Shown here piece by piece: positions 59,858-64,000 of a stretch of 64,000 bases of DNA (within the stretch, counting starts at the first letter, position 1; every line of letters starts with the position of its first letter). A program made the position numbers and the translations under genes. The notes beneath the pieces were generated by a model that was given only the letters and a program-made list of their open reading frames with translations, was not told the DNA's origin and did no database searches. Origin of the DNA: Umezawaea endophytica (lineage in GTDB: Bacteria > Actinomycetota > Actinomycetes > Mycobacteriales > Pseudonocardiaceae). The stretch lies in assembly GCF_025061645.1 (NCBI RefSeq), contig NZ_JANYMP010000006.1, positions 1 to 64,000 on the forward strand. The letters are read 5' to 3'.

Positions 59858-60859
59858 TCAGAGCGAGGAACCCACGTGCTTGGCGGCCTCGGGGTGGCGC
59901 TTCACCTTGATGAGGCTGGCGATGGTGGTGATGGTCAGCACGCCGACGATCACGCCGAGCGAGAGTTCGATGCCGATCGTCGGCACCGGCAGGCCCTCAC
60001 CGCCGTTGAGGAACGAGAACGTGTTGGTGTGCAGGGCTTCCAGGATCAGCTTCACGCCGATGAACCCGAGGATGACCGAGAGGCCGACCGACAGGTAGAC
60101 CAGCTTGCTGAGCAGGCCGCCGAGCAGGAAGTAGAGCTGCCGCAGGCCCATCAGGGCGAACGCGTTGGCGGCGAAGACGAGGAACGGCTCCTTGGTGAGG
60201 CCGAAGATCGCCGGGATCGAGTCGAGCGCGAACAGCAGGTCGGTCGTGCCGATCGCGACGATCACGATGAACATCGGCGTCACGAAGCGCTTGCCGTTGA
60301 CCTTGATGAACGACTTGGACTCGTGGTACTCGTCGGTGACCGGGAAGACCTTCCGCACCAGGCGCAGCGCGGTGTTCTCCTTGAAGTCGTCCTCTTCCTC
60401 GTCGTGGTTCGTCCTCGCCAGGTTGTAGGCGGTGTAGATGAGGAACGCGCCGAAGATGTAGAAGACCCAACTGAACTGCGCGATGACCGCCGCGCCGACC
60501 GCGATGAAGATGCCGCGCATCACCAGCGCCATCAGGATGCCGATGAGCAGCACCCGGTGCTGGTGGATCGCGGGCACCTTGAACGTGGTCATGATGATCA
60601 GGAAGATGAACAGGTTGTCCACGCTGAGCGAGTACTCGGTGATGTACCCGGCGAAGAACTCGGTGGCGGGCTGGCTACCCGCGAAGAACCAGAGGCCCGC
60701 CCCGAAGGCGATGGCCACGGCGACGTAGAACGCCACCCACCGACCCGCTTCGCCGATGGTGACCTCGTGCGGTTTGCGGTCGACGATCACGAGGTCGACG
60801 GCCAGGAGGACGAGGAGACCGGCGATCGTGGCGATCCACAGCCACGCGGGAACTACCAT
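59858..60859 (-). CDS. TerC-family integral membrane protein (Alx-like)
   Basis: 333 residues, nine membrane segments, ATG with GGAGG nine bases upstream. Family signatures: AGYITEYSLSVDNLFIFLIIM near residue 70, DFKENTALRLVRKVFPVTDEY, KRFVTPMFIVIVAIGTTDLLFALDSIPAIFGLT (shown by its ends), and FAANAFALMGLRQLYFLLGGLL. The paired Asp residues in SVDN and ALDS line the predicted metal path. TerC/Alx proteins export manganese or help metalate secreted proteins. The leader carries a yybP-ykoY (Mn2+-sensing) riboswitch, so this is most likely a manganese-responsive exporter. A longer in-frame extension upstream is part of that leader, not protein. Confidence 0.92.
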   Translation of the reverse strand: MVVPAWLWIATIAGLLVLLAVDLVIVDRKPHEVTIGEAGRWVAFYVAVAIAFGAGLWFFAGSQPATEFFAGYITEYSLSVDNLFIFLIIMTTFKVPAIHQHRVLLIGILMALVMRGIFIAVGAAVIAQFSWVFYIFGAFLIYTAYNLARTNHDEEEDDFKENTALRLVRKVFPVTDEYHESKSFIKVNGKRFVTPMFIVIVAIGTTDLLFALDSIPAIFGLTKEPFLVFAANAFALMGLRQLYFLLGGLLSKLVYLSVGLSVILGFIGVKLILEALHTNTFSFLNGGEGLPVPTIGIELSLGVIVGVLTITTIASLIKVKRHPEAAKHVGSSL

Positions 60860-60887
60860 TATTCCAAACCTCCGGACAGGCGCACGC

Positions 60888-61003
60888 CAATGCCCGGAGG
60901 TCTCCTCCACCGGGCGATCGTGCTGCCCAGCCAACGGCACCGGGTGCTCTTCAGGTCGAGCACCGTGCTGACGACACCGCTGCGTCGGGAGTACTCCCCT
61001 CCA
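60888..61003 (-). ncRNA. yybP-ykoY (Mn2+) riboswitch upstream of TerC
   Basis: On the minus strand the leader has the blocks of the actinobacterial yybP-ykoY element in order: GGGGAGTACTCCC (60986-60998), GTCGTCAGCACGGTGC (60961-60976), CCGGTGCCGTTGGCTGGGC (60924-60943) and a terminal GCCCGG...CCGGGC hairpin enclosing GGAGGAGACC (60892-60915). The GGGGAGTA and TTGGCTGGGC blocks match the loops that bind Mn2+ together. The GGAGG ribosome site of the TerC gene follows about 20 bases later. Confidence 0.78.
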
Positions 61004-61190
61004 CGCTCGCCCTGAGTGTGTCCCACCGGGGGTACCCCGCGCCACTCGTGGTGACCAGACGCACCCGTTCCGGCCGATTTCACCCGAAAGACCTCCGAGT
61101 TTCTTCCACCAGCCGAAATGCCGGGAGACCACGGGCAGGCCGCCCTATACCTTCAGCCCGTTCTCAGCAAACCTCCAATAAGGTCAACTC

Positions 61191-64000
61191 GTGTCCCACC
61201 TCTCCCGCCTCCGCGGCAGGTGGTCTCTCCCCATCGTGTTCGTGGTGCTCGCCCTCGTCGGCGGCACCGTGCTCTGGACACGATCGGAAGACGCCCCTCC
61301 GCCGGTGAGCACCCGTGACGCGGTGATCGACGTACCGGAAAGTCCTGGCAACTCGCAGACGATCCAGATCGACACCACGCTGTACCTGCCCGCCCAGACG
61401 CCCGCGCCCGCCGTCCTGCTCCCGCACGGTTTCGGCGGGAGCAAGGCCAGCGTGGCCACCCAGGCCACCGAGCTGGCCCAACGCGGGTTCGTCGTCCTCG
61501 CCTACTCGGCGCGCGGCTTCGGCCGCAGCACCGGCAAGATCTCGCTGAACTCCCTCGACTACGAGGTCAAGGACGCCCAGAAGCTGCTCGACTGGCTGGC
61601 CACCCGCGAGGAGGTGCAGACGGACGGCCCCGGCGACCCCAGGGTCGGCGTGACCGGCGGCTCCTACGGCGGCTCGCTGTCGCTGCTGCTCGCCGGTGTC
61701 GACCCGCGGGTGGACACCCTCGCGCCGGTCATCACCTACAACGACCTGTCGCAGGCGCTGCTGCCGAACTACGGCGCCACGCAGGCGTCCTCCGCGACCA
61801 CGCCCGCCGCCGGTTCCTCCGGCGACGTCGGCGTGTTCAAGCGCTCGTGGGCGGGCATCTTCTTCTCCGCGGGCCTGTCCGGCGCCGACGGCACGAACCC
61901 CGGCCGCGAGGCTCCCGAGCCCGGCCAGGAGGACGACGACCCGGTCGGCAACGCCGCCTCGGCGGCGGGTTCCGTCGCCGCGCAGGGCCGCCAGCCCGGC
62001 ACGGCCACCCCGCAGGCCCCGGACGCGTGCGGCCGGTTCACCCCGGAGGTGTGCGCCGCCTACACGGAGGTCGCGACCACCGGCAAGGCGAGCCCGGCGA
62101 CGCTGAAGCTGCTGCGCGACGCCTCCCCCGTGTCCGTCACGAGCGGGATCAAGCAGCCGACGTTGATCGTGCAGGGCGAGCAGGACACCCTGTTCGGCCT
62201 CGACCAGGCCGACGCGAACGCCCGCCAGATCAGCGCGAACGGCGCCAAGGTCAAGGTCGTCTGGTACGCGGGCGGCCACGACGGCGGCAGCCCCGGCGCG
62301 TCGCTGCGCGGCGAGATCGCCGACTGGATGGCGTTCCACCTCCAGGGCAAGGGCACCGACCCCGGCACCGGCTTCGAGTACGCGGTGCAGGGCGCGTTCC
62401 GCACCAACGGGACGTCGTCGCTGCGGACCGTGACCTCGGGGAGCTACCCCGGTCTCACCGGCGGGACGGCGACCGAGCGGACCTCGCTGCCGCTGGAGGG
62501 CCGCGAGCAGATCGTGGTCAACCCCGCGGGCGGCAACCCCGCCGCGGTGAGCAGCCTGCCGGGCTTCGGCGCGGTCCTCAGCGGGTCCAACTCGCTGTCC
62601 AGCAGGCTGTCGATCGACCTGCCCGGCCAGGCCGCCGTGTTCAGCTCCGAGCAGCTCACCTCCCAGGTGCTGGTCGCGGGCTCCCCCACGGTGAAGCTGA
62701 AGGTCGCGGCGGTGCCCGGCCAGCCGGTGCCCGCCGAGGGCGCCGTGCTGTTCGTGAAGTTCTACGACGCCGACCAGAACGGCAACCGGACGCTCCCCGG
62801 CGCGGCCGTGGCGCCCGTCCGGATCACGTCGCTGCCCGCCGACGGCAGCCCCGTCGAGGTGTCCGTGTCGCTCGCGGGCGTCGTGCGGCCGGTCGAGAGC
62901 AACCACCGCGTGCAGCTCGTCGTGGCGACCACGGACCAGTCGTACGCGAACGCCGAGACCCCCGCCGCCTACCGGATCTCGCTGGCGGACGACGCCATCC
63001 AGCTCCCGGTCGTGCCGGGCACCAACGTGGTCGCGGCGACGTCGACCACCGCCCTGTGGGGCATCGGCATCGTGCTGCTGGCGTTCGTCGCGGTCGGCGT
63101 CGTGGCCGCGTTCCGGCGCAGGCTCGCCGCGGACGTCGACCCCGAGCTGCTGACCGTGCCGCTGGTCATCGAGAACCTGACCAAGTCCTACCCCGGCAAG
63201 CTCACCGCCGTGAAGGACCTGTCCTTCCGGGTCGAGCACGGCCAGGTGCTGGGCCTGCTCGGGCCGAACGGCGCGGGCAAGACCACCACCCTGCGGATGC
63301 TGATGGGCCTGATCCACCCGACCGAGGGCGGCATCAGGGTCTTCGGGCACAAGGTGACGCCCGGCGCGCCCGTGCTGTCCCGCATCGGCTCGTTCGTCGA
63401 GGGCGCGGGCTTCCTGCCGCACCTGTCCGGCACCGCGAACCTGCACCTGTACTGGGCGGCCACCGGCCGACCGGTCGAGCAGGCGCACTTCGAGGAGGCG
63501 CTGGAGATCGCGGGCCTCGGCAACGCCGTGAACCGCAAGGTCCGCACGTACAGCCAGGGCATGCGGCAGCGGCTGGCCATCGCCCAGGCGATGCTCGGCC
63601 TGCCGGACCTGCTCGTGCTGGACGAGCCGACCAACGGCCTCGACCCGCCCCAGATCCACCAGATGCGCGACGTGCTGCGCCGCTACGCGGCGGCGGGCCG
63701 GACGGTGCTGGTCTCCAGCCACCTGCTGGCCGAGGTCGAGCAGACCTGCTCGCACGTCGTGGTGATGCACAAGGGCCAGCTCGTGGCGGCCGGACTGGTC
63801 GAGGACATCGCGCAGGGCGGTGGCGAGGCCACGTTCAAGGTCGACGAGCCCGCGCAGGCAGCCACCGTGCTCCGGGGCCTCGACGGCGTGCAGGACGTGC
63901 ACGTCGACGGTGAACTCGTGCACGCGGGCCTCAACGGCACGCCGCGCGCGGTCGCGCTCGGCGAACTCGTCAAGGCCGGGATCATGGTCGACCAGGCCGG
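61191..64000 (+). CDS. fusion: extracytoplasmic S15-type alpha/beta hydrolase plus ABC ATPase (partial)
   Basis: A GTG at 61191 (AAGG upstream) opens a frame that stays open to the window edge, so at least 936 residues. Residues 12-28 (LPIVFVVLALVGGTVLW) are a membrane anchor. Residues about 45-600 form a CocE/X-Pro dipeptidyl-peptidase (S15)-like hydrolase: LLPHGFGGSKAS, TGGSYGGSLSL (Ser), VQGEQDTLFG (Asp), YAGGHDGGSPG (His) and a jelly-roll-like C-terminal part. A second membrane helix lies near residue 620 (LWGIGIVLLAFVAVGVV). Residues from 655 are a complete ABC domain: GPNGAGKTTT (Walker A, about 690), YSQGMRQR (signature), LLVLDEPTNGLD (Walker B), SSHLL (H-loop). Permease genes should follow beyond the edge. 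Confidence 0.85.
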   Translation, partial: MSHLSRLRGRWSLPIVFVVLALVGGTVLWTRSEDAPPPVSTRDAVIDVPESPGNSQTIQIDTTLYLPAQTPAPAVLLPHGFGGSKASVATQATELAQRGFVVLAYSARGFGRSTGKISLNSLDYEVKDAQKLLDWLATREEVQTDGPGDPRVGVTGGSYGGSLSLLLAGVDPRVDTLAPVITYNDLSQALLPNYGATQASSATTPAAGSSGDVGVFKRSWAGIFFSAGLSGADGTNPGREAPEPGQEDDDPVGNAASAAGSVAAQGRQPGTATPQAPDACGRFTPEVCAAYTEVATTGKASPATLKLLRDASPVSVTSGIKQPTLIVQGEQDTLFGLDQADANARQISANGAKVKVVWYAGGHDGGSPGASLRGEIADWMAFHLQGKGTDPGTGFEYAVQGAFRTNGTSSLRTVTSGSYPGLTGGTATERTSLPLEGREQIVVNPAGGNPAAVSSLPGFGAVLSGSNSLSSRLSIDLPGQAAVFSSEQLTSQVLVAGSPTVKLKVAAVPGQPVPAEGAVLFVKFYDADQNGNRTLPGAAVAPVRITSLPADGSPVEVSVSLAGVVRPVESNHRVQLVVATTDQSYANAETPAAYRISLADDAIQLPVVPGTNVVAATSTTALWGIGIVLLAFVAVGVVAAFRRRLAADVDPELLTVPLVIENLTKSYPGKLTAVKDLSFRVEHGQVLGLLGPNGAGKTTTLRMLMGLIHPTEGGIRVFGHKVTPGAPVLSRIGSFVEGAGFLPHLSGTANLHLYWAATGRPVEQAHFEEALEIAGLGNAVNRKVRTYSQGMRQRLAIAQAMLGLPDLLVLDEPTNGLDPPQIHQMRDVLRRYAAAGRTVLVSSHLLAEVEQTCSHVVVMHKGQLVAAGLVEDIAQGGGEATFKVDEPAQAATVLRGLDGVQDVHVDGELVHAGLNGTPRAVALGELVKAGIMVDQA

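Follow-up and report, generated by a model that had tools for sequence, protein, structure and literature searches.

A predicted extracellular S15-type hydrolase fused to a cytoplasmic ABC ATPase, encoded next to an ABC-2 permease and widespread in actinomycetes

Extent and reality of the fusion gene

The right end of the window analysed here (the whole stretch of DNA studied, 64 kb, which is the start of a contig in the 11.0-Mb genome of Umezawaea endophytica) is occupied by a frame that appears to join a hydrolase to an ABC ATPase. This raises the questions of whether the two domains belong to one protein and, if so, what such a protein would do at the membrane. The gene begins with a GTG at 61191 on the forward strand. 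The frame 61191–63998 is interrupted by the window edge alone, and in the parent contig it continues beyond position 64000 to a stop at 64061, giving a protein of 956 aa. The single polypeptide proposed in the initial annotation is thus upheld by one continuous frame, and the sequence past 64000, which that annotation had called for, supplied both the stop and, as the next gene, a permease (see below).

A stop or frameshift between the domains, which would make them separate genes, was absent from 80/80 related loci (the best 80 of 195 candidates). In every one of these 80, a single alignment spans the query from residue 18 or earlier to residue 951 or later within an open frame no shorter than 941 aa; both domains were also matched within 20 distant frames. 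Given the same single frame in all 80 named loci, we regard two genes wrongly joined by an assembly error or frameshift as ruled out, with near certainty. One-TGA flags were raised in genomes G088, G021 and G059. Since the frames of L093 (in G088) and L095 (in G021) are open through both domains and finish at their own C-terminus (...LEDAFLELVGE), the flagged TGA in these two is the end of the gene. A 919-aa frame on the minus strand of the same DNA resembles a shadow frame, the DNA being GC-rich.

Hydrolase and jelly-roll domains

A Pfam scan of the 936 aa lying inside the window matched above cut-off the two families named in the initial annotation, PF02129 (Peptidase_S15) and PF00005 (ABC_tran). 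The former match (residues 58–355, 74.6 bits against a cut-off of 23) lies in a predicted extracellular alpha/beta hydrolase domain of the S15/CocE type (61296–62360, approximately residues 36–390). Its putative catalytic residues are Ser158 (61662–61664, in GGSYGG), Asp332 (62184–62186, in GEQDTLFG) and His363 (62277–62279, in GGHDGG). All three are identical in 52/52 aligned near sequences, the window protein included. In a wider set, the Ser-Asp-His triad of the S15/CocE-NonD hydrolases was found in 35/35 fused sequences, and the serine also in 23/23 free hydrolases, i.e. relatives without an ABC domain. Cys280 and Cys288 (62028–62054) are both present in 52/52 near sequences, and each of these columns holds cysteine in 33/35 fused sequences of the wider set and in 14/23 free hydrolases, a conservation that would fit an exoplasmic disulfide and suggests a possible one here.

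The hydrolase is followed by a putative PepX_C-like jelly-roll domain (62370–63026, approximately residues 394–612). In the window protein the PepX_C match reached 16.5 bits, below the cut-off of 22.5, and two distant fused relatives that were scanned scored 56.1 and 58.5 bits, above it; in addition, the fold alignment to the lipase PaL extends through residue 608 (VIA-align 2). An AlphaFold2 model of the fusion protein, built from 52 sequences, has a mean pLDDT of 78.2. The hydrolase, jelly roll and ATPase are well formed in it, and the regions of low confidence include the N-terminus, a variable stretch (residues 231–277), some of the jelly roll and the boundaries of the second membrane segment. 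In VIA-align 2, the hydrolase part aligned with PaL over 450 residues (Z 31.9, rmsd 2.7, 22% identity) and with cocaine esterase at a Z of about 26. The initial annotation had suggested a peptidase or acyl hydrolase. The S15-type fold was borne out, but the nearest solved relative goes by the name of lipase and is followed in fold similarity by CocE-type esterases, so that peptidase is just one option.

Membrane segments and topology

Hydropathy analysis detected two membrane segments, TM1 (61224–61280, residues 12–30) ahead of the hydrolase, and TM2 (63051–63107, residues 621–639), which is followed by RRR. Both were detected in 80/80 relatives (best 80 of 195). Because the net charge ahead of TM1 exceeds that behind it in all 80 of these relatives, the most likely arrangement has the N-terminus in the cytoplasm and the hydrolase outside, where it had been placed from the window alone. 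The corresponding bias around TM2 is weak (48 of the same 80), but the ATPase must nevertheless be in the cytoplasm, and the overall topology is supported by both sequence and models. This also supplies the topology prediction that the initial annotation had called for.

The distance from the centre of TM2 to the Walker A motif is 58–62 residues in 80/80 near relatives (best 80 of 195). Across 20 distant frames this distance has a median of 62, most values falling between 60 and 73. The linker is far longer, about 150 residues, in a Nonomuraea copy (L150), whose TM2 lies near residue 599 and whose Walker A motif is at residue 759.

ATPase domain

The predicted cytoplasmic nucleotide-binding domain begins at residue 658 (63162–64000, its last 20 residues lying beyond the window) and matches PF00005 over residues 674–815 with 104.5 bits against a cut-off of 25. 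It contains a Walker A motif (GPNGAGKT, 63261–63284, residues 691–698), an ABC signature (SQGM, 63552–63563, residues 788–791), a Walker B motif (LLVLDEP, 63609–63629, residues 807–813) and a conserved H-loop histidine, His844 (63720–63722). Lys697, Gln789, Asp811/Glu812 and His844 are invariant in 52/52 aligned sequences including that of the window, so the motifs of an ABC ATPase are complete.

The closest named models in NCBIfam were DrrA (TIGR01188, 183.4 bits against a cut-off of 312.45) and then the lantibiotic-protection ATPase LanF (TIGR03740, 176.1 bits against 309.75), both scores falling below cut-off. The nearest solved proteins by sequence are ABCA3/ABCA4. By structure, Foldseek placed NosF first among its ABC rows (33% identity in the alignment), whereas VIA-align 2 put TM_1403 and CbiO first. 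At the Q-loop position the fusion protein has a glutamate, Glu737 (63399–63401), which is conserved in 113/114 fused sequences, nested copies of some loci being counted; Glu or Asp also occupies this position in 6/7 free ATPases of the same genome. An E-loop is present in lantibiotic ATPases. The open-licence literature yielded nothing on the E-loop, the available part of PMC5786555 lacking that word.

Permease gene

The initial annotation had expected a permease to be encoded further on, and the next gene (64058–64999, outside the window) does encode an ABC-2 permease of 313 aa, its GTG start falling within the overlap with the stop of the fusion gene. The protein scored above the Pfam cut-offs for PF12679 (31.4 bits, cut-off 27.2) and PF12730 (31.3 bits, cut-off 27). 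Its structural model, of moderate confidence (pLDDT 70.9, against 48–56 for four others), folds closest to NosY (Z 17.1, rmsd 3.6, 233 residues), with ABCG2 next (Z 16.6).

A homologous permease, 65–93% identical to that of U. endophytica, follows the fusion gene in 80/80 loci (best 80 of 195). With mechanically picked starts, the two genes overlap by 4 bases in 44 of the 80 and by 1 or 8 bases in 14 more; 21 have a gap of 40–692 bases, of which 18 (L024 and L026–L042) belong nearly all to Lentzea, and in one a start was plainly mis-picked. In the distant set, a permease gene comes next in 15/15 fused loci with DNA past the stop, four others (L113, L114, L115 and L120) ending earlier. Only one permease gene is present downstream, not the two (LanE and LanG) of a lantibiotic exporter, and the two genes after it encode a cupin and a TetR regulator (Pfam). 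Inspection of the frames revealed no gene for a binding protein adjoining the fusion/permease pair and no two-component genes around the fusion.

Distribution and gene neighbourhood

Scanning a single genome from each species produced 195 confirmed candidates. The 80 best loci, in which one species is represented twice, were retained, and their fused frames measure 941–1330 aa. By the fusion gene, the closest relatives are Umezawaea tangerina (88%) and then Saccharothrix and Lentzea. Within the family of U. endophytica, requiring a match that crosses from hydrolase to ATPase within an open frame of 880 aa or more, at least 94 of 100 genomes carry the fusion. Among the matches listed, four of the 100 (G037, G040, G071 and G074) have ATPase-level matches only, and two with broken contigs (G011 and G061) were left out of the fused count. 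At the order level, the match extends as far as query residue 690, immediately ahead of Walker A, in at least 78/121 genomes. In a sample of the phylum the fusion was found in at least 20/296 genomes, that of U. endophytica included, this figure being a lower bound with 3 candidates scored per genome. The search for the same fusion in other actinomycetes, which the initial annotation had recommended, was thus successful, and the architecture, which it had considered unusual, is instead widespread in actinomycetes, with the fused forms grouping in a hydrolase tree (see below). No paper describing this fusion was found in the open-licence literature. A copy on a Tsukamurella plasmid is annotated as 'alpha/beta fold hydrolase', and the gene after it as 'ABC transporter permease'.

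Other neighbours are conserved at short range. In the window's family (best 80 of 195 loci), a TerC gene (Pfam) lies divergently upstream of the fusion in 80/80, an S9 peptidase gene is nearby in 73/80 and UvrB in 50/80. None of the three is beside the fusion in six distant loci with longer flanks (L144, L145, L146, L148, L149 and L150), and weak S9 matches in the distant set were found solely beside the free hydrolases L142 and L143. The ten genes near four distant fusions have no Pfam name in common, one of them having no match, and, the permease aside, no neighbour common to distant taxa was found. Since none is kept beside distant fusions, these neighbours look like the result of descent rather than function.

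Origin of the fusion

A tree was made from 58 hydrolase domains, i.e. 62 rows less four duplicates, with stretches matching fewer than 250 profile positions omitted. By this quick method with midpoint rooting, a branch with an SH-aLRT value of 98 has the fused forms together on one of its sides. Two long rows and nine rows of odd make-up were flagged, and the free rows are those that the searches returned. The lone 'free' row among the fused forms, L115, comes from a locus that ends in the ABC domain, the start of which is present; it keeps the label free in the tree, whose count of changes predates the recount, and was counted as fused in the wider conservation set. The simplest reading is that a secreted hydrolase and an exporter ATPase became fused once and have stayed so since, the root being placed at the midpoint, not inferred. 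The fusion system is probably old.

Of the 23 free hydrolases, 14 have one hydrophobic segment, located before the domain, 5 have none and 4 have more than one; L127, L135 and L147 have a second hydrophobic segment after the domain, without ABC. No convincing ABC gene of this kind, as expected for a split-gene form, was found near these 23, the loci L117–L128 covering just 3–4 kb. Other ABC frames were seen near two of them, on the opposite strand in L123 and approximately 5.6 kb off in L131.

Proposed mechanism and alternatives

We give an even chance to the reading that the pair is a two-gene ABC-2 exporter of NosFY/ABCG-like fold with a tethered outer hydrolase, in which extrusion and cleavage take place at one site. 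The fusion protein and the product of the overlapping permease gene would form a two-subunit exporter, probably assembled from two fusion chains and two permeases, with the ATPase dimer beneath a permease dimer of the NosY/ABCG type. TM2 would tie each ATPase to an outer-face hydrolase of esterase/peptidase-like type. At the cost of ATP, a lipophilic or an acylated/peptidic substrate would be extruded from the membrane or the cytoplasm, and the tethered hydrolase would cut an ester or amide bond as the substrate leaves. The ABC-2 fold is supported by sequence and models; we infer the 2:2 assembly, the export direction, a general role in the envelope, and that the compound processed is the very one transported. 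Export is preferred to uptake fed by cleavage because of the ABC class (a DrrA/lantibiotic-like ATPase and an ABC-2 permease of NosY/ABCG fold). Where the initial annotation had coupled cleavage outside to transport or export, export is favoured here and the coupling stays a proposal. The conservation of the fused frame, of the permease and of the catalytic residues in both domains speaks for this reading, as does the grouping of the fused forms in the tree. Counting against it are the lack of any neighbour but the permease common to distant taxa, the weak charge bias at TM2, the low PepX_C score of the window protein, the few family genomes outside the fused count, the ranking of TM_1403 and CbiO ahead of NosF in VIA-align 2 and the moderate permease model.

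The same parts might instead form a machine that transports nothing, the stroke of the ATPase being relayed by TM2 and the permease so that the outer hydrolase is opened, loaded or positioned. A mechanical role of this sort has been discussed for NosFY and NosD, and the likeness to Nos proteins (NosY the best permease match, tied with ABCG2; NosF the first ABC row of Foldseek; NosDFY/NosDFYL complexes in the titles of matched structure entries) is in its favour, as is the nearly fixed spacing between TM2 and Walker A in the best 80 of 195 loci. However, NosF is not the top match of the ATPase by sequence, where ABCA3 is, or by VIA-align 2, the spacing is looser in the distant frames, the long linker of the Nonomuraea copy argues against a rigid rod, and free hydrolases with the same fold and triad occur without ABC; we consider such a machine quite unlikely. 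A related proposal, an extracellular hydrolase gated or powered by cytoplasmic ATP hydrolysis through the ATPase-TM2-hydrolase chain, would make the permease a stator or a substrate lift, by which membrane lipids or acylated compounds might reach the active site. The same Nonomuraea linker slightly lowers its odds, and we hold it to be rather improbable.

Detoxification is a minor possibility: the pair would expel membrane-active antibiotics or peptides and the hydrolase would destroy them outside, as a one-chain counterpart of NSR and its ABC transporter. According to the available parts of the respective papers, NSR, which has an N-terminal TM helix, shares an operon with the ABC transporter NsrFP (PMC4698656), and lantibiotics are expelled by LanFEG (PMC5786555). 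The lantibiotic-protection ATPase is the second-best NCBIfam model and the glutamate at the Q-loop position is nearly invariant among fused sequences. Yet that model scores far under its cut-off, the acidic residue is common in free ATPases of the same genome, there is a single permease gene with no two-component genes noticed among the nearby frames, and presence in at least 94/100 genomes of the family better fits a general role. Finally, the fusion might merely hold a surface hydrolase 1:1 beside an unrelated exporter, as the ABC-less relatives, most of them (14/23) with one hydrophobic segment before the domain, and the long linker of L150 would allow. Against this, the fused forms stay together in the sampled tree with no return to separate genes, and the short spacing between TM2 and the ATPase is kept in 80/80 near loci (best 80 of 195), so we rate tethering alone as low as the purely mechanical role.

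Comparison with known systems

The exporter with a tethered hydrolase resembles several systems in part. NosDFY is a machine with an extracytoplasmic partner, NosD. The likeness extends to its ATPase (NosF, 33% identity in Foldseek) and its permease (NosY, Z 17.1 over 233 residues), but here an S15-type hydrolase with a covalent link to the ATPase takes the place of the outer partner, and the Pfam matches of the fusion and the permease name no NosD domain in these two proteins. The exporters LanFEG, BcrAB and DrrAB share the type of ATPase (DrrA and lantibiotic models), the glutamate at the Q-loop position and an ABC-2 permease, but here the scores are under the curated cut-offs, there is one permease gene, and the ATPase bears TM1, the hydrolase and TM2 at its N-terminus. 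By analogy, the fusion system may work like LanFEG or DrrAB, and it is assigned to neither, both models being below cut-off and the permease single.

In the nisin resistance operon, a membrane-anchored protease (NSR) likewise occurs with an ABC transporter (NsrFP), as described in the available part of PMC4698656. Unlike here, the genes are separate, the transporter is of the BceAB type and a two-component system is present. The fold of the NSR protease also differs from that of the fusion's hydrolase. PCAT exporters, like the fusion, combine a peptidase with an ABC ATPase in one chain, but their C39 cysteine peptidase acts in the cytoplasm, whereas the serine hydrolase of the fusion would act outside; other peptidase-ABC fusions are not known to place the enzyme anywhere but inside the cell. 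CocE, PepX, the alpha-amino-acid ester hydrolases (S15, CocE/NonD) and the lipase PaL share the fold and the triad, and probably the jelly roll, but their solved entries are hydrolases alone, without an ABC domain.

As far as the open-licence literature shows, the fusion is a widespread, undescribed system of a known kind of transporter. What sets it apart is a serine hydrolase, most likely outside, that is covalently tied to an ATPase inside and kept with one permease across a wide span of actinomycetes. Annotation conceals the fusion, the one annotated relative being named simply as a hydrolase. Consisting of two genes only, the pair is a compact system in which to ask if ABC motors can drive enzymes at the outer face or feed them, and it marks an unstudied, near-core function in the family to which U. 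endophytica belongs.

Genomic surroundings of the fusion gene

The gene encoding the S15/CocE-type hydrolase-ABC ATPase fusion is preceded, in divergent orientation, by a gene for a TerC-family membrane protein (window 59858–61132; PF03741, 170.8 bits). This divergent upstream arrangement was present in all 80 loci kept as the best from a scan of one genome per species, and a TerC gene was not found beside the fusion in six distant fused loci examined with longer flanks. Beyond the window, the minus strand of the same contig encodes a row of three proteins (67025–70813; 9025–12813 in L009, the stretch taken from this contig): 1) a protein kinase (PF00069, 36.9 bits), 2) a protein with no Pfam match, which we read as phosphatase-like, and 3) a protein with a sub-threshold VWA match (20.2 against a cut-off of 27). 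The row resembles the TerY-type phosphorylation triad.

In 18 loci, nearly all from Lentzea (L024 and L026–L042), 101–692 bases separate the fusion stop from the permease start. In the ten of these loci that were read, the gap contains an apparent small conserved reading frame (MAAASA... TANPNRTKAP...), the start of which is similar to the permease N-terminus, and several seemingly carry a repeat-like insert there as well. The small frame may have arisen by partial duplication of the permease start, or it may encode a small protein specific to this lineage.

Variation among fused and free proteins

Within the fusion ATPase, Glu737 (window 63399–63401) replaces the Q-loop Gln; the corresponding residue in seven free ATPases from this genome is Glu (3), Asp (3) or Gly (1). 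In the Nonomuraea gerenzanensis fusion (L150, 7869–10769), the linker from the second membrane helix to Walker A is rich in Gly/Ala and about 150 residues long, compared with about 60 elsewhere. Three genomes of the family sample (G032, G059 and G060) each contain a second, more distant fusion copy.

Three free hydrolases (L127, L135 and L147), which lack the ABC part, have a second hydrophobic segment after the hydrolase domain; in the hydrolase-domain tree, L135 pairs with L147 as its sister. These three proteins are possibly relatives of a pre-fusion form.
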